DNA of 49,470 bases from Gammaproteobacteria bacterium (GTDB lineage Bacteria > Pseudomonadota > Gammaproteobacteria > JAJDYQ01): NCBI GenBank assembly GCA_028289815.1, contig JAPYNQ010000078.1:1-49470 (forward strand), in the 5' to 3' direction. Positions 1 to 43,967 of this stretch are shown piece after piece. The position numbers were made by a program, and so were the translations under genes. Numbering within the stretch: position 1 is the first letter of the stretch; each line of letters starts with the position of its first letter. A model generated the notes under the pieces. That model searched no databases. It was not told where the DNA came from and worked only from the letters and a program-made list of their open reading frames with translations.

Positions 1-219
1 AAGCGCGGACTCTACGGCACTTGGCACAAGGCCAGCCGCAAGCACCTGCACCGCTACGTGAACGAGTGCACCTTCCGGCTCAATGAGGGCAACGTGAAGG
101 TGCACACGCTGGATCGGATTGATGCGCTGGTCCAGCGGGCATTCCGGGCGCGACTCGCCTACGCGAAGCTCACTGCCGACAACGGACGCTCGGCGGAAGC
201 CGAAGTGGTGTCGGTGTGA
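1..219 (+). CDS. IS1595-family transposase, C-terminal part (cut by window edge)
   Basis: Frame 1 is open from the window edge to TGA at 217-219 (72 residues). The peptide has the typical end of an ISXO2-like DDE transposase: Y-G-T-W-H near residue 5, then KHLHRYVNE and TFRLNEGN, then a DRIDALV segment. The same motifs occur in the second IS1595 transposase of this window (31194-32219), where they read AKQYVNEFTF and DRINALF. The gene is GC-rich. Its stop overlaps the GTG start of the following methyltransferase by 4 nt (GTGA), so the two are probably translated from one message. The N-terminal zinc ribbon and most of the catalytic domain lie outside the window, so activity cannot be judged. 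Confidence 0.85.
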   Translation, partial: KRGLYGTWHKASRKHLHRYVNECTFRLNEGNVKVHTLDRIDALVQRAFRARLAYAKLTADNGRSAEAEVVSV

Positions 220-1220
220 GTTTACGAGCTAGATTGGCGGCTTCGGAGCGCATTCGGCTTCGAGCTTTTGTCAATGAATGGATTTCTGATGCTTTACCGA
301 AGCATCGGAAGTATCTGAAACATTCCGAACCTGAGTTCATCAAATCTCGCAACCTGTGGCGAGTTGGTTTGAACGCCAATGGCTGTGGTCGTTGCGTTGG
401 CCATGTTTGGGCTGCGTTAGATGAAGGTGTTGTCGATGCAGTAGCTCCCTCTTTAGTAGAACGAAAAATTGACGACTTGTTGCACGAGAAGAAAAACCCT
501 AAACCTTTGCCGAGGGAAATTTCAGGGGAAAACTACAGTTTTTATTTAGGTGATGGGATCAGTGCAGCGCAGAAACTCCAAGATAATGAGATCGACCTTC
601 TCTTGACGGATCCACCTTACGGGATCAGCAAGGCATATACGTGTGAGACGCAAGTTCCTCGTCGTCTGCGAAATAACGGGCGCGACTTCATTATGCCGAA
701 GGGACATTTTGGTGATTGGGATGCTATTCCGCTTTCCTGGCTTGAGGTTGTATTACCTAAAGTCGGGGGGTGGGTCGTTACCTTCTGCGCTCACGCGCAG
801 ATAGGCGAGTACCAAGAAGTATTGACAGATCATAAATTTGTCGCTGTTGGCGCGATGGTCTGGAAAAAAACGAACCCGGTTCCCTTTAATCACAGGTTCA
901 AGCCAGTAAACTCTTGGGAGGCTATCGTTGTCGGCAAACGCCCAAGGACAAAATTCAATGGCCATGTTGTTCACAACGTATTTCTTTACAAATCTCCATC
1001 CCCTAGAGTTCGTATTCACCCTACACAGAAACCTTTGCCTCTCCTTGAGGAATTCGTAGGCTTGTTTACTGATCCCGGCGATTTAGTTTTTGATCCGTTT
1101 GGTGGAGCGGCAACTACGCTGATAGCTGCATCAAAGCATGGCAGGCGCGCTGTATCCTATGAACTAGAGCCGGAAATTTACCAAACAGCAGGCAGGCGTA
1201 TTCTGGATGCTTTCGCATGA
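216..1220 (+). CDS. DNA methyltransferase (N6-adenine/N4-cytosine, beta-type order)
   Basis: The 334-residue protein should transfer a methyl group from S-adenosylmethionine to an adenine or cytosine amino group in DNA, protecting sites from the nuclease encoded next. Catalytic motif IV is D-P-P-Y-G at residues 132-136. The SAM-binding motif I, F-D-P-F-G-G, comes later at about 292-297, so the order IV then I is that of beta-class amino-methyltransferases. The GTG start at 216 overlaps the transposase stop; a TTG at 234 is an alternative and there is no useful early ATG. About 100 residues precede the catalytic core and contain C-G-R-C, with no function I recognise. The gene is less GC-rich than the transposase. 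Target specificity cannot be read from the sequence. Confidence 0.85.
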   Translation: MSLRARLAASERIRLRAFVNEWISDALPKHRKYLKHSEPEFIKSRNLWRVGLNANGCGRCVGHVWAALDEGVVDAVAPSLVERKIDDLLHEKKNPKPLPREISGENYSFYLGDGISAAQKLQDNEIDLLLTDPPYGISKAYTCETQVPRRLRNNGRDFIMPKGHFGDWDAIPLSWLEVVLPKVGGWVVTFCAHAQIGEYQEVLTDHKFVAVGAMVWKKTNPVPFNHRFKPVNSWEAIVVGKRPRTKFNGHVVHNVFLYKSPSPRVRIHPTQKPLPLLEEFVGLFTDPGDLVFDPFGGAATTLIAASKHGRRAVSYELEPEIYQTAGRRILDAFA

Positions 1221-1939
1221 ACCCGGAAGATCTGAAAAAATTAGAAGAAAAGTTCGATAGTTCAACTAAGACTGGGATGGTTTTTCAGGTCTTGAAAGAT
1301 CATCAATGGCATTGCCGCGAGTGCGAGTACAAGCACACTGGCATAACGCAGATTGCTGGCGGCTCAGGCATTCAGGGGCTACAAAGAGGAAATAGATCTC
1401 GACTAGGACTAGTCATAGAGAGTGGCAATCATTTCTGCGAAAAGTGTGATAGGACAACAAGGCATGACCGATGGCAGGGACAGTTCCAAGCTGCGGTTCA
1501 AGCAGCATCAATGCCTAGCAAATTCGTCAAAAGAGCTGTGGCTTTGCTGAAAAGTAGGGACGTTATAGAGGGAACCGAGAGACCTACTAACCAACTAACC
1601 ATCGATCACAAACTGCCGATGATTCGGTGGGATGAAGCGATGGCGCGTAAGCAGACAAATTATGCGGAAATGTCCGATCAATTTATCCTGAGACATTTTC
1701 AGCTACTGAAAAAATCGAATGGAAGCGTAAGTCACAATCTACTGAAAAGTCGTGCTTGTGAACGGTGCTTTAGGCGCAGGGAACGCGGAACTCCTTTTGG
1801 TATCCGATTTTTCTATTCCGGCGGTCCGGATTGGGAGCCTAAAGATAGAAAAGATGCAACGGGCTGTCGTGGTTGCGGATGGTACGACTTCGACAAATGG
1901 CGCATTGCACTGAACAAGAAATTGAAGGAGATTCCATGA
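1217..1939 (+). CDS. putative HNH-type type II restriction endonuclease
   Basis: The 240-residue protein starts at ATG 1217, overlapping the methyltransferase stop by 4 nt (ATGA). It has several Cys-X2-Cys pairs (WHCREC near residue 33, CEKC near 76, CERC near 180, CRGC near 217) that suggest structural zinc, an I-D-H-K motif at about 129-132 and a later Asn/Cys-rich stretch, which together fit an HNH (beta-beta-alpha-metal) nuclease. Its place directly behind a methyltransferase makes a cognate restriction enzyme the natural reading. I do not recognise the specific family or recognition site. An HNH protein with another role, for instance in DNA repair, is the main alternative. Confidence 0.65.
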   Translation: MNPEDLKKLEEKFDSSTKTGMVFQVLKDHQWHCRECEYKHTGITQIAGGSGIQGLQRGNRSRLGLVIESGNHFCEKCDRTTRHDRWQGQFQAAVQAASMPSKFVKRAVALLKSRDVIEGTERPTNQLTIDHKLPMIRWDEAMARKQTNYAEMSDQFILRHFQLLKKSNGSVSHNLLKSRACERCFRRRERGTPFGIRFFYSGGPDWEPKDRKDATGCRGCGWYDFDKWRIALNKKLKEIP

Positions 1940-2217
1940 CCGAAGAAGAGGCGAAGGAGCCTGCAGAACCGAGTCTGCGCGAAATAGTCCACCAGTCTGT
2001 GCCGGCCAACGACATCAATGGGCAGCGGATGGCGGCTGAGATCTTCGGTGAGCTACCGGCAGACAGCCCGTATTACGACCAAGCGCAAGTCATGGAGCGG
2101 GACAATCCAGAGCCGAAGCAGCCGACTCCGCCCGCGCTGGACGCCGCCGTCAAGCGGATTCTGGCTTACCGGCCACCGGCGAAGCGGCGCGGGCGGGTGG
2201 TGGAGTCAAGTAAATAA
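1936..2217 (+). CDS. small hypothetical protein, last ORF of the IS1595 transposon
   Basis: The 93-residue ORF begins at ATG 1936, overlapping the restriction gene stop by 4 nt, with a GAAGGAG ribosome site just upstream. The longer open frame from 1873 has no such signal. The protein is charged: the first part is rich in Glu, Pro and Ala, the end is basic (R-P-P-A-K-R-R-G-R). No domain is recognised. It is clearly GC-richer than the two genes before it and resembles the transposase in composition. Its TAA stop lies inside the transposon terminal repeat at 2208-2222, so this is the outermost gene of the element. A regulator of the restriction system or a remnant of the transposon backbone are both possible. 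Confidence 0.6.
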   Translation: MTEEEAKEPAEPSLREIVHQSVPANDINGQRMAAEIFGELPADSPYYDQAQVMERDNPEPKQPTPPALDAAVKRILAYRPPAKRRGRVVESSK

Positions 2218-2222
2218 TTCCC
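2208..2222 (+). repeat. terminal inverted repeat, right end of IS1595-type transposon
   Basis: AAGTAAATAATTCCC differs at one base from AAGTATATAATTCCC at 32281-32295 and 27311-27325, the outer and inner ends of the other IS1595 element in this window. It marks the right border of the transposon that carries the restriction-modification genes. The left end and any target duplication lie before position 1. Confidence 0.75.
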
Positions 2223-2309
2223 TTTAGTAGGACCTTATTCCTCTTTTTGGTTTTGAAGGCAACAGTGAGACTTGCAGAGTATTCTGGGGGGACGGCAAAA
2301 TACCCGCCT

Positions 2310-27104: not shown

Positions 27105-27112
27105 ATATTTTT
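27105..27112. repeat. target-site duplication, left copy (ATATTTTT)
   Basis: The 8 bp directly before the left terminal repeat are identical to the 8 bp directly after the right one (32296-32303). Eight bp is the target length reported for IS1595-family elements. Confidence 0.9.
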
Positions 27113-27127
27113 GGGAATTACATACTT
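27113..27127 (+). repeat. left terminal inverted repeat of the 5.2-kb transposon
   Basis: GGGAATTACATACTT, followed by AATACCG. The inverted right end of the element continues the same way (GGGAATTATATACTT then GATACCG), so similarity extends to about 22 bp. Confidence 0.85.
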
Positions 27128-27325
27128 AATACCGAAGATGTTTGACAAACTACATATAGCTGCTAAAATGATGTTGATCTCTACACACATAGGAGATTTA
27201 AGTAGAAAATCCAGTCATTATGGCTGGTCGGCCCTCGGGAATAGGGCTGCTAGACGTGGAGGTAACGAGGTTATTCGGCCTGTGAATCGTCAAATTGATA
27301 TTTGGGTAGCAAGTATATAATTCCC
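27113..27325. repeat. 213-bp MITE-like segment bounded by IS1595 repeats
   Basis: A second inward-facing copy of the repeat, AAGTATATAATTCCC at 27311-27325, makes the leftmost 213 bp look like a small non-autonomous IS1595 element. It has no target duplication of its own: ATATTTTT on the left and TAATACAG on the right. The 69-codon open frame inside begins like the upstream region of the intact-length transposase copy (MGITYLIP versus MGIIYLIP) and is not a gene. Confidence 0.7.
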
Positions 27326-27342
27326 TAATACAGAGTAGAGTA

Positions 27343-27843
27343 ATGACTACAGAAATCAAAAGGGAAAAGCTGGGAGCGCATCTGAATAAATTCAGTTTAA
27401 CTAAGATCCGCCTGAATTTAAAATTTGTCGAAGCTGAAATTTCTTTCACGCAAGCGGATCAAGATGCTGCTTGGGAATTACATGTTGAGATGCTGACAAG
27501 AATCGTCACTCAGCCTCTACCATCTAATTCAGGAGATGAAAAGACGGCCTTGGACAGCATTTTTGCACTTTTCTCTATTACTCGCGAGATTCTGCGGCGA
27601 CATGGACGTAAAACGATACAATTTAGTAAGATTGCGATACCAGTGTTGAATCAGATAGTACGACCTTTTACTGCAAAGTGGCATAAGGAGAGTCTGGCAG
27701 GAACCTTTCTAGATGCAACTAAAAGAAAAGAATTTCGCATTGAACTGGAAGATTTACAGAATGAATTACGAAACTATAATCGCTTTTTGGCGACAATTGC
27801 CGGTGTGGAAGATTTGACTGATTTAGAGCAAATAACACCTTAA
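27343..27843 (+). CDS. unknown helical protein, first gene of the TIR/Nmad2/MazG/UDG cassette
   Basis: A 166-residue soluble protein, strongly helical by pattern, with a charged start (T-E-I-K-R-E-K-L-G-A-H-L-N-K-F) and a coiled-coil-like end (R-I-E-L-E-D-L-Q-N-E-L-R-N-Y-N). I do not recognise a domain. It is the first cargo gene, 17 bp inside the inner repeat at 27325 and 36 bp before the TIR-like gene, in the same direction and with the same AT-rich composition. It could be an adaptor, an inhibitor of the TIR protein or a sensor subunit. Those roles are guesses. Confidence 0.75.
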   Translation: MTTEIKREKLGAHLNKFSLTKIRLNLKFVEAEISFTQADQDAAWELHVEMLTRIVTQPLPSNSGDEKTALDSIFALFSITREILRRHGRKTIQFSKIAIPVLNQIVRPFTAKWHKESLAGTFLDATKRKEFRIELEDLQNELRNYNRFLATIAGVEDLTDLEQITP

Positions 27844-27879
27844 AATGATTTATAATATGGTAAAAAATAGGTCTAGTAC

Positions 27880-28356
27880 ATGACTAGCGAAACAAAAAAT
27901 ATCTTCATAAGTCATATTCATGAGGACGACGGTGGCCTAAGTAAGCTCAAAAACCTGCTAGAAGATAATGGGATGACCATCCGGGACTATTCAATAAATT
28001 CCGACAATCCAAATAATGCTCATTCTGAAGACTATATCAAATCTAAGATTCTAGCACCGCGTATCCAGCAGTCAAGCACACTGGCAGTTTATATTTCCCC
28101 TGAAACCAAGGATAGTAAATACGTTAATTGGGAAATTGAGCATGCCCACAAACAAAGGAAACGAATTGTAGGTATTTGGGCACATGGAGAAAAAGGCTGT
28201 GAAGTTCCAGAAGCATTGAACAAATATGCCGATGCTGTGATTGGTTGGGAAGGTAATCGTATTATTGATGCGATTAATAGTGAAATTAATGGTTGGGAAA
28301 ATCCAGATGGAACACAACGTGACACCCGAGGCATCAAACGATATAGTTGTGGCTGA
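27880..28356 (+). CDS. TIR-like (MTH538/ThsB-type) domain protein
   Basis: A 158-residue single-domain protein. It begins with the first strand and turn of the TIR fold (N-I-F-I-S-H-I-H-E-D-D), then a helix, L-A-V-Y-I-S-P-E-T near residue 68-76, and S-K-Y-V-N-W-E-I-E-H-A with W84-E85, the position of the conserved Glu in this group, followed by R-I-V-G-I-W-A-H-G. Proteins of this class either make cyclic ADP-ribose-type signals (Thoeris ThsB) or destroy NAD+. The last 50 bp overlap the Nmad2 gene in another frame, so the two are coupled. No partner SLOG-domain ThsA is present. Confidence 0.8.
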   Translation: MTSETKNIFISHIHEDDGGLSKLKNLLEDNGMTIRDYSINSDNPNNAHSEDYIKSKILAPRIQQSSTLAVYISPETKDSKYVNWEIEHAHKQRKRIVGIWAHGEKGCEVPEALNKYADAVIGWEGNRIIDAINSEINGWENPDGTQRDTRGIKRYSCG

Positions 28357-28981
28357 AACCCATAATGTGAAGCTATTCTCTTACGTTGTTGCTCGGGATT
28401 ATGGTTTTGCACCTAACCCTTTTTTTGGGATATGTACATTGGCTACATGTAAGCCAAGAATTCGAAAAGCAGCCTCCATTGGAGATTGGATTATTGGTAC
28501 TGGCAGTAAACAAGAAAGGAGGCAAGGACGCCTCGTTTACGCCATGCGTGTAACGGAAACCATGACATTTAATGAATACTGGGAAGATGAGCGGTGCAAA
28601 TGTAAAAAACCAAACCTGAGAGGCAGCTTGAAGCAAGCATTCGGCGACAATATCTATTTTCAAGACGAAGCTGATCAGTGGCAACAGATGGACTCCCATC
28701 ACAGCTATGAGAATGGCGAGCCCAATTCGAATAATATTGAGCGTGATACACAGACAGACAAGGTCCTGTTTAGTGCGGAATATGCATATTGGGGTGGTTC
28801 AGGACCAGAAATTCCTCAGAAATTCAGCAAAGACTACGAAAACGAAGTTGACATTTGTGCACTTCGAAATCATAAGTGCAACTTTCCAGAAAAACTGGTT
28901 AATGATTTTCTTGAGTGGTTCCAGAATCTTGATGCGAGTGGTTATCTTGGTGAACCCTTAGATTGGCCAGAGACAACATAA
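28307..28981 (+). CDS. Nmad2-type nucleotide-modification-associated protein
   Basis: A 224-residue protein whose first half matches the Nmad2 pattern: F-S-Y-V-V-A-R-D-Y-G-F-A-P-N-P-F-F-G near residues 24-41, T-L-A-T-C-K-P-R-I-R and G-D-W-I-I-G-T-G-S near 59-67. This fold was proposed from comparative genomics to bind or modify nucleotides and is found beside DNA-modification and conflict genes; its chemistry is not known to me. ATG 28307 lies inside the end of the TIR gene; no later Met precedes the conserved region. The stop is 16 bp before the MazG gene. Confidence 0.75.
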   Translation: MEHNVTPEASNDIVVAETHNVKLFSYVVARDYGFAPNPFFGICTLATCKPRIRKAASIGDWIIGTGSKQERRQGRLVYAMRVTETMTFNEYWEDERCKCKKPNLRGSLKQAFGDNIYFQDEADQWQQMDSHHSYENGEPNSNNIERDTQTDKVLFSAEYAYWGGSGPEIPQKFSKDYENEVDICALRNHKCNFPEKLVNDFLEWFQNLDASGYLGEPLDWPETT

Positions 28982-28997
28982 CCACCATGCCTGAAAA

Positions 28998-30158
28998 ATG
29001 ACCAAACTAAACAAACTGTTGTTTGATGGCACAATGTTTATACGAGATTACATGCGGGAGATTGAATCGACTGATCAACTTCCAAAGGACAATCTGGATC
29101 AAATTCTTATGGGTCTTTTCGGTGAAGTCGGTAGCATTATGGCAGCTGCTAAAAAGCATGTCAGAGAAGACAAGGCATATGCCAGATATCAGCAGGCTTT
29201 GGAGGAAGAATTCGGTGATGTGCTCTGGTACTTTACTACATTATGTCAGCGTCTTGGTACGGGCATCGACAGTATTTTTTCTGATGTGTCTATGCAGGAG
29301 AAATACAACAAGTGTGTCGCCGCAAGCGGCCTGTTGGATGGCCCTATTTCTCACATCTCATCAGCCAGCCAATCGCCTGCATTGAATGAGGCACTGTTGA
29401 AATTGGGAGAGGCAATGACGGCATTGCTCAGCATAAAGGAATTAAATAAAAACACACAAGACTCGCTGTTCAGATTCGCAGATCATTACCTACAGGCACT
29501 GCAAGTAGCAAAGATGAGCTTTTCAAAAATTGTCCGGATGAATATCGAAAAAACACATGGGCGTTTTCTCAAACAGATTGAGGCTGATTTGCCAACTTTT
29601 GATAGCGGTTTTCCAGATGAGGAAAAACTACCTGATCAATTCAAGATAGAAATTATACAAAGAAAAAACAGGCAAAGTTACATGCGATGGAATGGTGTAT
29701 TTATAGGATCGCCTCTTACAGATAGTATTCCAGATCCTGATGGTTACCGATTTCATGATGTATTTCATCTTGCTTATGCCTCTATTCTCCATTGGTCTCC
29801 TACATTTCGTAGCCTAATAAAACAAAAGCGTAAAAGTGATCCAGAAGTCGATGAAGCTGAAGATGGTGGAAGGGCAATTGTTATTGAAGAGGGACTTACA
29901 GCATGGATATTTTCTTCATATGCAAAACATCTTAATTTTTTTGAAGGTCACGATAGGGTCTCTTTTGACTTGCTAAAAACGGTGAGTCAATTCGTGCAGG
30001 GATACGAAGTAGAACATTGTCCTCTCAGTCTATGGGAGAAGGCAATTCTCAGGGGTTATAGTGTCTTCAGAAAGGTGCGGAGTAATAACGGCGGGATTGT
30101 AATTGGAAACCGTAAAGACCGAACTATTGAATATAGATCAATCAATAGGAGTAAATAG
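28998..30158 (+). CDS. MazG-like nucleotide pyrophosphohydrolase with large C-terminal domain
   Basis: A 386-residue protein. Residues 30-85 hold a MazG-type metal site: G-E-V-G with E43, then E-E-E-F-G-D-V-L-W-Y with E71 and D74. A second domain (about 200-370) has D-G-Y-R-F-H-D-V-F-H-L-A-Y and I-V-I-E-E-G-L-T-A-W, a pattern I associate with the MazG C-terminal domain family. MazG enzymes cleave (d)NTPs to NMP and pyrophosphate, removing non-canonical or alarm nucleotides. Within a TIR/Nmad2/UDG cluster it probably acts on a modified nucleotide. The stop lies one base before the UDG start. Confidence 0.82.
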   Translation: MTKLNKLLFDGTMFIRDYMREIESTDQLPKDNLDQILMGLFGEVGSIMAAAKKHVREDKAYARYQQALEEEFGDVLWYFTTLCQRLGTGIDSIFSDVSMQEKYNKCVAASGLLDGPISHISSASQSPALNEALLKLGEAMTALLSIKELNKNTQDSLFRFADHYLQALQVAKMSFSKIVRMNIEKTHGRFLKQIEADLPTFDSGFPDEEKLPDQFKIEIIQRKNRQSYMRWNGVFIGSPLTDSIPDPDGYRFHDVFHLAYASILHWSPTFRSLIKQKRKSDPEVDEAEDGGRAIVIEEGLTAWIFSSYAKHLNFFEGHDRVSFDLLKTVSQFVQGYEVEHCPLSLWEKAILRGYSVFRKVRSNNGGIVIGNRKDRTIEYRSINRSK

Positions 30159-30159
30159 G

Positions 30160-30834
30160 ATGACACCAACACAATTCGTAGAGGAGTTAAAGAATCTGGA
30201 GTTTGAGAATACATTTAACCCGTATTCTGACCAATGTGATGCTCATGATTTTGATAGTGCCGCAGATTGCCGCTCACAATTATTACAGGAAATGCTTGAA
30301 GTGGCGATTGAGCAACCAGTTAACTCAATCTGGATCGGACGCGATCTAGGCTACCGTGGTGGGAGGCGAACAGGGCTTGCTTTTACAGACGATGTGCATA
30401 TTCAGGTACATGCCAAACGCTGGCAATTATCATCTTCTATTAATCGCTTTACGAAAGGTAAAGCCGTTACTGAACGGACAGCTACTGTGATCTGGGATAT
30501 GCTTTCATTGATTCAAGAATCTGTCTTTCTCTGGAATGTCTTTCCATTACACCCTCACGAAACAGATAATCCTTTTAGTAATCGATCTCATAATGCTGGT
30601 GAACGGAGGGTTGGTGAAGAGTTGCTCTCTGAGCTTATTACCATGCTTGAACCGCAAAGGCTGATTGCAGTTGGTAATAATGCGACGCGGACAGTATATC
30701 ACCTATGTGGAGAGCATGAGGTAATACCGGTACGGCATCCAAGTTATGGTGGGCAATCTACATTCCTTGAACAAATCAGCAAACTGTATCAACTGCCTGA
30801 AATATTCAAATCGCCGTATACCAGAAGACAGTAG
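30160..30834 (+). CDS. uracil-DNA glycosylase superfamily protein
   Basis: A 224-residue protein from ATG 30160, with a GGAG-containing ribosome site overlapping the end of the MazG gene. It has the UDG-fold motif 1 variant W-I-G-R-D-L-G-Y-R-G-G-R-R-T-G (58-72), a central F-L-W-N-V-F-P-L-H-P-H and motif 2 R-H-P-S-Y-G-G near 192-198. Motif 1 differs from the canonical G-Q-D-P-Y of UNG, so the substrate may be a modified base or nucleotide instead of uracil. It is the last gene of the five-gene cargo. About 360 bp separate it from the transposase remnant. Confidence 0.82.
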   Translation: MTPTQFVEELKNLEFENTFNPYSDQCDAHDFDSAADCRSQLLQEMLEVAIEQPVNSIWIGRDLGYRGGRRTGLAFTDDVHIQVHAKRWQLSSSINRFTKGKAVTERTATVIWDMLSLIQESVFLWNVFPLHPHETDNPFSNRSHNAGERRVGEELLSELITMLEPQRLIAVGNNATRTVYHLCGEHEVIPVRHPSYGGQSTFLEQISKLYQLPEIFKSPYTRRQ

Positions 30835-31193
30835 TGTGTCAATCTGACTTTTTTCTGTAATGGACAACTATAGCCTCCCATGTTACGCCTTATATCTCAA
30901 AGACAGCCGAAGCGTACACTATTATGGCGTTATTCTACCCTGATGCAGATGAGCCCATGAGTGACGATCTAGGCAAACCTCGGCGAATGGTCTGACTGAC
31001 ATGTCCATCGGGTCTAAAGGTGAGAAATGTATTCCTGCTACATAGACGAAGAGCGGCCACTGCGGAACCAAATTCAATCCCAAACAGCCCATAGAAATAT
31101 TGGTCGGAGTAATAACAGATATAAGCAAACTATTCAAAACGGAGAGGGAACAAGCAGAAATCATACAAATTCTCAGAGATCAGGCAATTGATC
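30835..31193. other. stretch without a recognised gene inside the transposon
   Basis: No convincing gene. Part of it is open on both strands, for example a plus-strand helical-looking stretch near 31100-31215 (K-L-F-K-T-E-R-E-Q-A-E-I-I-Q) and a minus-strand frame at 30922-31164. These may be remnants of the transposase 3' region or a lost sixth cargo gene. I see no inner IS1595 repeat here, which supports the view that only the outer repeats define the element. Confidence 0.5.
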
Positions 31194-32219
31194 TTAACGA
31201 GTTAAAAGCAAACGACGCTTACCGAGGGAGAAAGCACTTTGACCCGTTTGCAGACTGTGATTCCGGTTCAACTTCCCTGCAAGGCGGTACTCAACTGTGT
31301 TCGCGATCAATTCGGTATACGTCAGTCGTTTGCCGACCATGCGGGAGAACAAGGCATTGATGCGGTCCAAGGCCGGCGCATGGCAATGCCCGTCACCGAG
31401 CTGGAAGGTAAACTCATTGACATACTGCTTGGCAGTGTTTCGTGCTCCAGTGATGATACACCCCGTCAAAGCCCCGCCCACACGCTCTCAATGCCATTGG
31501 TGCTCGCCATGTCGTTGACAAACTCCTTGGCCGAATGATTGACTGTCTCGTGGGTATAGTAGGCACCGACCGGAAGGCAGGCACGGGACTCATCGGTGCA
31601 GACGAGTGCATCCGGGTCAATATGCGCCAAGGCAATGCCTACAACCGTTTCCGCATCCTCAATCGGTACTGCTCGGGCAGTCAACCTGCCCCCCGCCCCG
31701 GGCCCGCATACCGATGACCGCCTGCTTGCCCACCGGACCACGCCCGGCGCTCATCTTCTTATGCTCATGCTTGTTGGCTTCCTTGCCGCCAATATGCGTG
31801 GTATCAAGTTCCACAATGCCTTTAAGTAACTCCATATCCCCGCCACAAGCCGTGCGCAGGCGGCGCAGCATGAACCATGCCGTCTTCTGTGTCACGCTGA
31901 TCTCCTTGCTCAGTTGCAGAGAACTGACCCCCTTGCGGGCCGTCATCAGCGAGTAGATAACGTAAAGCCAGATATTCAAGGGGATCGGGGACTGCTCAAA
32001 GACGGTCCCCGTGCGTACACTGAAGAGGCTCTTGCCGCAGTCCCGACAATCGTAAAAGCCCGCTCGCTTGCCCTGTCGGGCATAAATGTTCGTGCTGCCA
32101 CAGGACGGACAGGTCACCGTACCACGCCACCGAACCTGCTCCAGATGCCGACGGGCAGAATCGGCATCTGGAAACCGGCGCATTAACTCATACGTGCTGA
32201 TCGTGATGTGATCGTTCAT
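31194..32219 (-). pseudogene. IS1595-family transposase with two frameshifts
   Basis: ATG 32219, with an AAAGGGGG ribosome site, opens a zinc-ribbon N-terminus (C-P-S-C and C-R-D-C pairs, near residues 37 and 58). The catalytic part starts with G-I-V-E-L-D-T-T-H-I-G-G-K and continues G-K-Q-A-V-I-G-M-R-A-R-G-G-G-Q. The frame is lost near 31690 in a C-rich run, resumes in the next frame (A-V-P-I-E-D-A-E-T-V-V-G-I to G-I-E-S-V-W-A-G-L) and is lost again near 31470 before A-K-Q-Y-V-N-E-F-T-F. All parts of an ISXO2-type transposase are thus present but split. It points away from the right transposon end at 32295. Confidence 0.88.
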
Positions 32220-32280
32220 CAAAATGTCCCCCTTTCGTGATTGGCTGACCGGCAGATTAACTCGGAATGTTTCCGGTATC

Positions 32281-32295
32281 AAGTATATAATTCCC
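32281..32295 (-). repeat. right terminal inverted repeat of the 5.2-kb transposon
   Basis: AAGTATATAATTCCC, the inverted partner of 27113-27127, about 60 bp before the transposase start. Confidence 0.88.
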
Positions 32296-32303
32296 ATATT
32301 TTT
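32296..32303. repeat. target-site duplication, right copy (ATATTTTT)
   Basis: Identical to 27105-27112, proving insertion of the whole 27113-32295 segment at one AT-rich target. Confidence 0.9.
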
Positions 32304-32419: not shown

Positions 32420-32965
32420 ATGTCGTTGCTCCCAGATTATTTCTCAGATTTTAGTGCCCGACTGCTTAATGAATCTGAGAGTATCAGAAAATTTTTTCAA
32501 GGTCACAAGCTAACTGCTGGTGAAAGTAAAGAAGATTTGGTTTCAAAATTTCTTACTAGCCACTTACCTAAAAGATTTTATATAAGTCCGGGACTAATTG
32601 TTTCAAAGGAGGGTGAATTCTCAAGTCAGGCAGATGTCACTGCTACAGACCAAATTAATAATGCACCATCTGAAAGGCCGGATTTCATAATTGCTCCTGA
32701 CTCCATATTATTGCGTTTAGGTCACTATCTGGAGTTGAGTAAAACTGGCCAAATTGGTAGCGGTTATAGAAAACAATTGCACCAAGCGCATGGTGACAAT
32801 GTACACCTACTTTTGGGTAATGGCATTGAAATATATGATCTTGGGCAGAATAGTCTGCTTGAATTCATAATATTGTATTCTTCATGGTTAAAAGCAGCCG
32901 GTAACCGTAGCGCTACTCTTGCTAAATATCTACCTAGTAATGAAGTTTTCGATCATATTATCTAA
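32420..32965 (+). CDS. DUF6602-like protein, possibly degenerate nuclease
   Basis: A 181-residue protein from ATG 32420. The first 80 residues (E-S-E-S-I-R-K-F-F-Q-G-H, G-E-S-K-E-D-L-V-S-K-F-L, L-P-K-R-F-Y-I-S-P-G-L-I-V, S-S-Q-A-D-V) follow the pattern of DUF6602 proteins, which look like restriction-type nucleases with D and E-x-K residues. Here the D of Q-A-D-V is present, but the E-V-K segment expected about 30 residues later is missing, so an internal deletion is likely. It lies between the transposon and the HindIII-type pair, AT-rich like both. Confidence 0.5.
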   Translation: MSLLPDYFSDFSARLLNESESIRKFFQGHKLTAGESKEDLVSKFLTSHLPKRFYISPGLIVSKEGEFSSQADVTATDQINNAPSERPDFIIAPDSILLRLGHYLELSKTGQIGSGYRKQLHQAHGDNVHLLLGNGIEIYDLGQNSLLEFIILYSSWLKAAGNRSATLAKYLPSNEVFDHII

Positions 32966-33045
32966 GCACATAACAAAGAATTTCGGCTGATGCGAGGTGT
33001 AGCTGATTTAAGCATTAATCATCTAAAAAAATATAAGGTAATCTA

Positions 33046-33973
33046 ATGAATGTAGAAATAATAACTCAGGAGCAAATCGACAATCGAGCTTATTGGATAG
33101 ATCAAATAAGCATATTGAGTGGTAATTTTAGGGCTGATGCAGAAAAAGTTGAAGATGAGATCGACAAGGAGATCAAAAATAAAGGTATTAATGCCTTACT
33201 CGGACATTTGAGATTATGCAGTGCGATTCCAGAGAGGTATGGTCATGACACAGGTGAAGAAAAATTGTATTCAAAATATACGGATATTGTAATTCATGAG
33301 GCGTATCTGTCGATGGGATTCAATAGCGTAGTATTGAAAGAGAGGGCGGATGTGGCTGACGTAGAGTGTCTAAACGATGACTATAGTTTTGTTGCCGATG
33401 CAAAAGCATTCAGGCTTAGTCGGACAGCAAAAAATCAGAAGGATTTCAAAGTTCAGGCAATGGACAGCTGGAAGTATGGAAAGCCTTATGCGATGATCGT
33501 CTGTCCTGTATATCAGTTGCCTTCTCTCACTAGTCAGATATATCAACAGGCGAGTGTAAGATCGGTTTGCATTGGTACATACACCCATCTTGCAGTATTA
33601 GTCCGTTATGCGGAAGAAAATAGTAAAAAAAGTGCGATGGAATTAGTTCTTGAGGTATTCAAAGCAGTTGAAGCTATGAATCCGTCAAAAGAGGCAGCTG
33701 ACTACTGGCAAATAGTAAATCGCCTTATACTTGATTTTGATAAAAATATTGGTAATTTGTGGCAAGAAGAAAAGCGAGCATCCATGGAATCAATATATTT
33801 CAAGGAAAGAGGCCCTAGACTTTTGGGCTTTGGAGCGTAAGCGGATTATGGGGCTTTCAAAAAAACAAGCTATCAGGGAAATTCTGAAAGCCAGTAAAGT
33901 AGAAAATAAAATCAGGGTTATTGAATCTGTAATTGATAATGGCCTATTAGATTTGAAAGGAAAAACCAAATGA
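33046..33973 (+). pseudogene. HindIII-type restriction endonuclease, frameshifted near the C-terminus
   Basis: The main frame (33046-33840, 264 residues) contains V-A-D-A-K-A-F-R-L-S-R-T-A-K-N-Q-K-D-F-K at about 116-135, the nuclease core of R.HindIII with D-A-K, and other matching blocks. It ends too early (L-L-G-F-G-A). The missing helices continue in the next frame from about 33805 (E-A-L-D-F-W, then K-K-Q-A-I-R-E-I-L-K-A-S) to TGA 33971-33973, which overlaps the methyltransferase ATG by 4 nt. A one-base change near 33805 has therefore split the gene. HindIII cuts AAGCTT; this copy may be inactive or work without its last 50 residues. Confidence 0.85.
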
Positions 33974-34899
33974 ATAAGAATTATATTAATAAAATTACTC
34001 TGGGAGATTGTCTGGAGCATATACCTATGTTGAAGAACAATAGCATAGATTTGCTTTTATCTGATATTCCTTATGGTATAGGCCTGGATGACTGGGATGT
34101 TTTACATAGTAATACCAACTCGGCTTTATTGGGTAAATCACCTGCCCAGGAAGGTAAGTCCGGGTTTAGGCGGAGAGGTAAGCCGATCAATGGTTGGGCG
34201 CAATCAGATAGAAATATTGGATTAGAATATCAGGAATGGTGCAGAGGATGGGCTACACAAGTTTATCCAAAGATGAAAAACGGATCTTTTCTTTTTATAT
34301 TCGGTGCCAGGAGAACGGTACATAGAGTAATTAACGCATTTGAAGATAGCGGATTTTTATTGAAGGATACTTTGGCATGGAAAAAGCCGTCAGCACATCA
34401 TAGAGCGCAGAGAGTCAGCATTATTCTTGAGCGGCGTGGTTTGAGGAAGAAAGCAGCATACTGGAAAGGATGGAGACTCGGGAATTTGGCCCCAATATGG
34501 GAACCCATCGCGTGGTTTATGAAGCCATATACTATTGGTGGAACTATCACGGACAATGTCCTGGAAAATGAAGTGGGTGCCATGAACATCGAAGAATGCA
34601 GGCTGGATGGTTGCAGCCCAACTAATATGCTCGAATTTGCTTTTGGTAAAGATGAGGTGAGAATTCACGAGGCACAAAAACCCCTTGAATTGACTGAGTA
34701 CCTGATTAAGCTGACAACAAGGAAGGGTCAAATAGTGTTGGATCCGTTTATGGGAAGCGGTACGACGGCGGTGGCAGCAGCAAGGCTGGATCGAAAATAC
34801 ATAGGCTTTGAGGTCAATCCTGAATTCCATAGCAAGTCACTGGAAAGAATTGAAGGACCAGTCTTGGGTAATGCTGAAGAGTTGCCCATATTTCAGTAA
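33970..34899 (+). CDS. HindIII-type adenine-specific DNA methyltransferase
   Basis: A 309-residue beta-class enzyme. The catalytic motif is S-D-I-P-Y-G at 31-36, the Ile variant typical of M.HindIII, and the SAM motif D-P-F-M-G-S-G-T-T is at about 258-266. The target domain lies between. N6-methylation of the adenine in the HindIII site is expected from the family. ATG 33970 overlaps the end of the frameshift-restored nuclease gene, so the two were one coupled unit. It appears intact, which fits a methylase outliving its nuclease. Confidence 0.9.
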   Translation: MNKNYINKITLGDCLEHIPMLKNNSIDLLLSDIPYGIGLDDWDVLHSNTNSALLGKSPAQEGKSGFRRRGKPINGWAQSDRNIGLEYQEWCRGWATQVYPKMKNGSFLFIFGARRTVHRVINAFEDSGFLLKDTLAWKKPSAHHRAQRVSIILERRGLRKKAAYWKGWRLGNLAPIWEPIAWFMKPYTIGGTITDNVLENEVGAMNIEECRLDGCSPTNMLEFAFGKDEVRIHEAQKPLELTEYLIKLTTRKGQIVLDPFMGSGTTAVAAARLDRKYIGFEVNPEFHSKSLERIEGPVLGNAEELPIFQ

Positions 34900-43780: not shown

Positions 43781-43967
43781 GTGTCCTCCGCTCGGCCGTC
43801 GCAAGGCATGCACCCTTGAACCTGAGTTCAAGTGGTGACATGCGAGAGACCGCAGGCTTTCCTCAGGAATCCGAGGATATGCACAAAGGCCTCAAAGCAT
43901 CGTCTCCTTAATCGGAGATTAAAGGCTCAAGAGATTGCATCAAGCTGACGAACCTCGCAGAGGACGA
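43781..43967 (-). ncRNA. ssrS: 6S RNA
   Basis: On the minus strand, about 187 nt start with GTCCTC and end with GAGGAC, closing a long hairpin. The 3' half has the conserved block around T-T-G-A-A-C-T-C-A-G-G-T-T-C-A-A-G-G-G-T followed by G-C-A-T-G-C-C-T-T-G-C-G-A-C-G-G-C, and CCTCGGATTCCTGAGGAAAG precedes it, all as in 6S RNA. A promoter-like TTGCTA, 18-bp spacer, TATCCT lies just upstream (44001 down to 43972). 6S RNA binds sigma-70 RNA polymerase in slow growth. fau follows about 135 bp downstream. Ends are estimated from the closing stem. Confidence 0.88.

Follow-up and report, generated by a model that had tools for sequence, protein, structure and literature searches.

How did five neighbouring genes, predicted to form an anti-phage operon, come to lie between short inverted repeats at positions 27113-32295 of a gammaproteobacterial contig? 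The window referred to throughout is the whole stretch of DNA analysed, namely positions 1-49,470 of contig JAPYNQ010000078.1 (assembly GCA_028289815.1), from a genome of 2.18 Mb; C-numbers denote contigs, G-numbers other genomes and L-numbers the loci examined. We consider it likely that the segment is a composite of 5.2 kb, consisting of a miniature inverted-repeat transposable element (MITE), the cargo genes and the remnant of an insertion sequence (IS), with outer ends that stem from two different elements. The features of the window are listed in Table 1.

The outer ends, GGGAATTACATACTT (27113) and the reverse-complemented GGGAATTATATACTT (32295), match at 14/15 positions, and the match extends to 19/21, or to 23 nt at 91%. 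Directly outside them lie two identical copies (8/8) of the 8-bp sequence ATATTTTT, at 27105-27112 and 32296-32303. The initial annotation had reported 15-bp inverted ends with one mismatch and identical 8-bp flanks, and both observations stand. Short imperfect inverted repeats with an 8-bp target-site duplication (TSD) are as found in the IS1595 family. The same rule of ends and TSD holds in four elements of this genome, where the TSDs of the family are 8 bp long and AT-rich, and in other genomes. Chance agreement was estimated from 17 flanks of this IS1595-type element family, and the TSD scan covered 442 kb of the 2.18 Mb. Independent flank pairs agree at 41% of positions, and the probability of 8/8 for one flank pair is approximately 0.8-1.2e-3. 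Among the 26 end pairs less than 20 kb apart, perfect 8/8 flanks were found in four, against approximately 0.03 expected, and 7/8 flanks in none; therefore, the duplications are not due to chance. The four are 27113-32295, a 1003-bp internally decayed IS (C50:4749-5751, TSD CAATACAA), a 197-bp MITE on C25 (TSD TAAAATAA on the strand of the element, TTATTTTA on the + strand) and a 3047-bp transposon with its right end in the window. These figures bear on the account in which a MITE and an IS1595 copy inserted independently beside an older defence island, their 8-bp flanks agreeing by accident. It can draw on an unrelated low-GC import in the same region (32420-34899) and on three other MITE copies that have no duplications. 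However, the probability for this pair is approximately 1e-3, each of the four perfect pairs found in the 442 kb falls on a plausible element and there are no 7/8 near misses, and we regard this account as highly improbable.

The left end is not that of a transposase-encoding element. A second right end, overlooked in the initial annotation, is found at 27305-27325 as a direct repeat of 32275-32295, and 27113-27325 is therefore a complete MITE of 213 bp. The flank of this inner end, TAATACAG, is no duplication of ATATTTTT. Three more full copies, 93-96% identical, are present in the same genome (C76:94540-94752, C10:8316-8528 and C47:15089-15301), together with several degenerate ones. In its 3′ half the MITE contains a remnant of a tnpB 3′ end, the counterpart of which in a sister species (G001:C84:262-333) is the 3′ end of a TnpB gene, and this region is conserved among the young MITE copies. 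The MITE also contains a promoter-like sequence that faces the cargo, the -35 hexamer of which is unchanged in all four copies. Its promoter function is a prediction, a sequence match being no functional proof.

The right end belongs to an IS1595-family IS, in line with the transposase pseudogene described previously. Its gene is frameshifted and matches PF12760 (9.2e-10), PF12762 (3.7e-6) and NF033547 (6.3e-20, 3 bits under the cut-off, the gene being broken), as an ISXO2-like/IS1595 DDE transposase with an N-terminal zinc ribbon. The inner end of this IS is absent, and homology with the simple 1003-bp element extends only to about 31290. The two outer ends of 27113-32295 are thus not those of a single transposase-encoding element, since the left one comes from a separate 213-bp MITE and the right IS has no inner end. 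Instead, the cargo lies between two related mobile elements and the TSD adjoins the outermost ends, as in a composite transposon. The composite is probably immobile now.

The segment had been described as one IS1595-type transposon, and its flanking duplication was said to show directly that cargo and transposase had arrived as a unit. The ends and the TSD do fit one transposition of 5.2 kb, which is the simplest reading, but the unit is a composite whose left end is a tnpB-derived MITE. Moreover, "shows directly" is too strong, because no empty site was found and because a plain IS that inserted first and was expanded later would leave the same TSD. Under a single transposition, a donor genome would have carried the MITE 17 bp upstream of the first cargo gene (g1) and, downstream of the UDG gene, an IS1595 element. 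The inner end of the IS would then have been lost and the outer MITE end would have paired with the outer IS end, through an IS1595 transposase acting in cis before its decay or, more probably, in trans from another copy. Everything between the outer ends would have moved, making the 8-bp duplication, and the MITE would also supply the promoter-like sequence facing the operon.

Alternatively, a plain IS1595 or MITE copy could have inserted first, making the ATATTTTT duplication, and the cassette could have been added later by recombination with circular or incoming DNA bearing another copy. Identical outer ends and a duplication would be expected here too, the fact that the right ends of MITE and IS are in direct orientation would be explained, and MITE copies are abundant in the genome. 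However, the MITE and the IS share only their terminal ~21-23 bp, so that the crossover would be confined to these. The right copy would also be expected to retain an inner left end, which is absent, and an extra later deletion would be needed. We therefore judge this sequence of events unlikely.

Several observations weigh against a single transposition of the composite. No empty site was seen when both flanks were searched for in two other genomes of the genus (G001 and G002); the sterol-desaturase contig of G002 stops inside that gene and uppP of G001 lies at a different place. The single insertion event is what we infer from the ends and the duplication. The three other full MITE copies have no matching 8-mers at their flanks, so either their duplications have decayed or been lost, or such ends do not always duplicate their target. 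Lastly, among the loci with this cargo, that of the window alone combines IS1595 ends with a TSD. At 17 other loci of cargo or g1 genes, a scan for ends plus TSD gave nothing beyond the null expectation except one weak GC-rich 14/18 match in L057, while the same scan recovered the window element as a positive control.

Table 1. Features of the window, in order of position.
Feature	Position	Strand	Evidence or remark
Second IS1595-type transposon, right part: transposase C-terminus, DNA methyltransferase, restriction enzyme, open reading frame (ORF), right end	1-2222	+	
Right TSD TTTAGTAG of second transposon (C27/C76 element)	2223-2230	.	left copy C27:24715-24722
Left TSD ATATTTTT	27105-27112	.	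sequence match
Outer left terminal repeat GGGAATTACATACTTAATACC	27113-27133	+	end comparison
Complete 213-bp MITE bounded by IS1595-type ends and supplying the outer left end of the composite	27113-27325	+	
Promoter-like TTGACA-16-TAAAAT inside MITE, facing cargo	27142-27169	+	11/12 consensus matches
tnpB 3′-end remnant inside MITE	27230-27298	+	79% nt identity to G001:C84:262-333
Inner right terminal repeat of MITE, bypassed by composite	27305-27325	-	end comparison
g1, 166-aa helical TIR-partner domain, putative effector or sensor	27343-27843	+	homologue contexts
ThsB-type TIR, putative NAD-derived signal synthase	27880-28356	+	PF08937 9.3e-24; PADLOC ThsB 4.6e-64
Nmad2, putative modified-base reader, PUA/EVE/YTH-like	28367-28981	+	PF18753 1.6e-69
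MazG + MazG_C protein	28998-30158	+	PF18722 3.8e-78
UDG-superfamily protein	30160-30834	+	PF03167 5e-9
Decayed spacer, no recognisable gene	30835-31290	.	
IS1595-family IS remnant, frameshifted transposase, inner terminal repeat absent	31291-32295	-	
Outer right terminal repeat, exact family consensus	32275-32295	-	end comparison
Right TSD ATATTTTT	32296-32303	.	sequence match

Are elements of this family otherwise found with defence genes? A second IS1595-type transposon, 3047 bp in total, starts at C27:24723 and ends at window position 2222, C27 and the window overlapping by 99 bp. The end of C27 holds its left end and most of its transposase (C27:24715-25646 with the TSD), the frame of which has one frameshift in the assembly. 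Its ends are an identical 22 bp (the right one at 2201-2222), and it carries an N6/N4 DNA methyltransferase (216-1220), a type II restriction enzyme (1217-1939; PADLOC REase_II, 1.5e-70) and a 93-aa ORF (1936-2217). In other genomes, G181 has two IS1595 elements that carry DNA methylases, with perfect or near-perfect ends and 8-bp TSDs, and G185 has one such methylase element in three copies with three different TSDs. Other gammaproteobacterial IS1595 elements with ends and TSDs of this kind carry a DUF3800 gene (G310) or unknown genes (G003). The initial annotation had pointed to IS1595 elements as the carrier, a suggestion that gains support from the restriction-modification (R-M) transposon flanked by TTTAGTAG and from the methylase elements elsewhere. 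IS1595 elements thus look like real carriers of defence genes.

The same cannot be said of the transposon as the boundary of the system. Four of the cargo genes, TIR-Nmad2-MazG_C-UDG, form a core that recurs in the same order and strand in approximately 15 other genomes or plasmids of alpha-, beta- and gammaproteobacteria, and in part in a Binatia contig and a cyanobacterial plasmid. Bacteria with the four-gene core include Beijerinckia, Cupriavidus, Tistrella, Roseovarius, Methyloversatilis, Brevundimonas, Achromobacter, Gallionellaceae, Lysobacterales, Accumulibacter, Sphingomonas and Symbiobacter. The ends of the segment had been taken as natural borders of the defence system. Since the core recurs without IS1595 ends, this is wrong in general, and the check proposed with it, for such ends and duplications around the cargo elsewhere, came back negative at the 17 loci, the weak match in L057 apart.

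The neighbours of the core vary and include SIR2-STALD (ThsA-like), TIR with SLOG cluster 3, TIR with SLOG cluster 2, SLATT/DUF4231 (two-transmembrane) and the g1 domain with N-terminal hydrophobic helices. The ThsA-like SIR2-STALD gene immediately precedes the core in Brevundimonas and follows it in Cupriavidus, and it adjoins the core only in L058 and L050. Homologues of g1 stand alone beside a ThsB-type TIR (G142, L121), lie beside a TIR gene (L117, L119, L120), precede the core with an N-terminal hydrophobic stretch (L065) or form the N-terminal part of a patatin fusion next to a TIR-Nmad2 pair (L116). As g1 homologues are repeatedly found beside TIR genes, g1 belongs to the system. The swapping of partners points to a core that makes or gates a signal and a partner that responds to it. 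Relatives of MazG_C also adjoin a 5-hydroxymethyldeoxyuridine (5-hmdU) DNA kinase (Gloeothece), a dCTP deaminase (Bradyrhizobium) or a dTMP kinase (Mesorhizobium).

Three observations concern these loci individually. A Sphingomonas homologue of g1 has extra N-terminal hydrophobic helices, and truncation of g1 by the MITE was considered; it was rejected, because standalone homologues of 157-158 aa start at approximately the same residue. The Mesorhizobium plasmid MesoLj131a2 (L116, 1073-8556) holds two TIR-Nmad2 pairs in one locus, one preceding MazG_C-UDG and having a dTMP kinase upstream, the other preceding the g1-patatin fusion. In Gammaproteobacteria Co_bin.43 (L064, 9121-10125), MazG_C and UDG of the cassette are separated by an IS1595-type transposase gene.

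All five cargo genes named in the initial annotation are present, and Pfam assigns four of them to ThsB_TIR, Nmad2, MazG_C (with a weak MazG) and UDG; g1 has no match in Pfam, PADLOC or NCBIfam. The TIR protein has a conserved W84-E85. The Nmad2 protein gave an AlphaFold2 model with a predicted local distance difference test (pLDDT) score of 80.6, and its Foldseek list consists mostly of YTH/EVE/ASCH/McrB-N modified-base readers. The N-terminal half of the MazG + MazG_C protein resembles iMazG and dimeric dUTPases, and searches of viral contigs and phage genomes gave no relatives of the protein. The UDG-superfamily protein shows the invariant motifs GRDLG..GRRTG, LWNxFPxHP and RHPSYGGQ.

What would such a cassette do? 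On the basis of domains and gene neighbourhoods, it is best read as a Thoeris-like system with a module that would sense modified pyrimidines. The ThsB-type TIR would make a nucleotide signal from NAD on infection. The reader-like Nmad2, MazG_C and the UDG-like protein would sense or process a phage-derived modified pyrimidine, either base or nucleotide, and would license the TIR, and g1, elsewhere fused to patatin or to transmembrane-like helices, would carry out or transmit the response. As in Thoeris (ThsB TIR plus ThsA SIR2-SLOG), the TIR is of ThsB type (PADLOC ThsB, 4.6e-64), a SIR2-STALD gene is directly upstream of the core in Brevundimonas and SLOG partners occur elsewhere. Unlike in Thoeris, there are additional conserved Nmad2, MazG_C and UDG genes, and the partner in the window is g1; no ThsA effector, whether SIR2-SLOG or a known alternative, is encoded in 27113-32295.

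Some results count against this function. The anti-phage activity of the operon is itself predicted. Foldseek gave no match for Nmad2 at E<0.001, sequence searches of Nmad2 and UDG against solved structures yielded nothing significant, and neither the C-terminal half of the MazG_C protein nor UDG had a match among solved structures. The first MazG motif usually has a second Glu. Here this residue is Gly/Ser, which makes pyrophosphatase activity uncertain. The cargo could instead be a nucleotide-salvage or DNA-repair operon, with house-cleaning of dNTPs by MazG_C and UDG, rather than an immune one. The MazG and UDG folds would suit such a role, and MazG_C-UDG pairs do occur without a TIR, one of them beside a dCTP deaminase. 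We nevertheless find it quite improbable, given that a ThsB-type TIR adjoins the core in nearly every close relative and that ThsA-like, TIR-SLOG or SLATT partners and other defence genes are nearby. In addition, DefensePredictor predicted MazG, MazG_C, NMAD and UDG as defence domains, as yet unvalidated (PMC13092281, Fig. 6F). The domain families are the same as here, while the accessible part of its text describes no TIR-Nmad2-MazG_C-UDG operon, swappable partners or transposon. Nmad2 named together with MazG, or the four-gene operon, was not found in the open-licence PMC papers searched, in which the cargo system is apparently undescribed.

The carrier is of a known kind. PMC3129680, citing Siguier et al. 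2009, describes "transporter IS" as a class of IS copies with passenger genes. 27113-32295 resembles an IS1595 transporter IS in its transposase, GGGAATTA..-type ends, 8-bp AT-rich TSD and passenger genes between the ends. It differs in that the left end is a MITE with a second end of its own, the transposase is broken and the inner IS end lost, and the cargo comprises five genes including a TIR rather than one or two. As in a composite (compound) transposon with two IS copies, there is a related element on either side of the cargo and the outermost ends would move as a pair, but the left copy is a 213-bp non-coding tnpB-derived MITE and no IS, and the right copy has no inner end. The R-M transposon of the same genome (C27:24723 to window 2222) shares the type of ends, an 8-bp TSD, a defence cargo and a frameshifted transposase, and differs in being a simple unit of 3047 bp in which the transposase gene adjoins the R-M genes. 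The new part is the composite architecture with its five-gene cargo.

Other observations were made in the course of the analysis. The conserved tnpB 3′-end region of the MITE corresponds to the expected place of the guide-RNA scaffold in TnpB elements; an Rfam search in and around the MITE gave no match. The sister species G001 has a 1261-bp element (L160, G001:C95:13473-14733) with identical 22-bp IS1595-type ends GGGAATTATATACTTAATGCCC and a TSD ATGAGAAT, the sole cargo of which is a full-length TnpB gene (391 aa); its transposition apparently depended on a DDE transposase supplied in trans rather than on IS200/IS605 or IS607. Directly to the right of the composite, the low-GC segment 32420-34899 contains a DUF6602 (PD-DExK/NucC-like) gene and a HindIII-type R-M pair, and a related HindIII-type pair is located between dinG and tsaB in G001. 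A 6S RNA (Rfam RF00013, 73 bits) is encoded on the - strand at 43781-43966.

Taken together, we tentatively propose that the operon may represent a new Thoeris-type branch, in which a TIR would be gated by a modified-pyrimidine sensor (Nmad2, UDG-like, MazG_C) and served by interchangeable effectors (ThsA, TIR-SLOG, SLATT, g1-patatin, g1), and which would have been spread with other defence genes by IS1595-type elements, including composites with tnpB-derived MITEs. Islands and phages are the usual basis for arguments on how bacteria exchange defence genes. A small DDE transposon family that carries defence cargo twice in one genome, both times with an intact TSD, offers a tractable carrier, and DNA methylases on the same family in several other gammaproteobacteria widen this case. 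The recurrent operon, for its part, would couple TIR signalling to nucleotide-modification domains while its effector is swapped.

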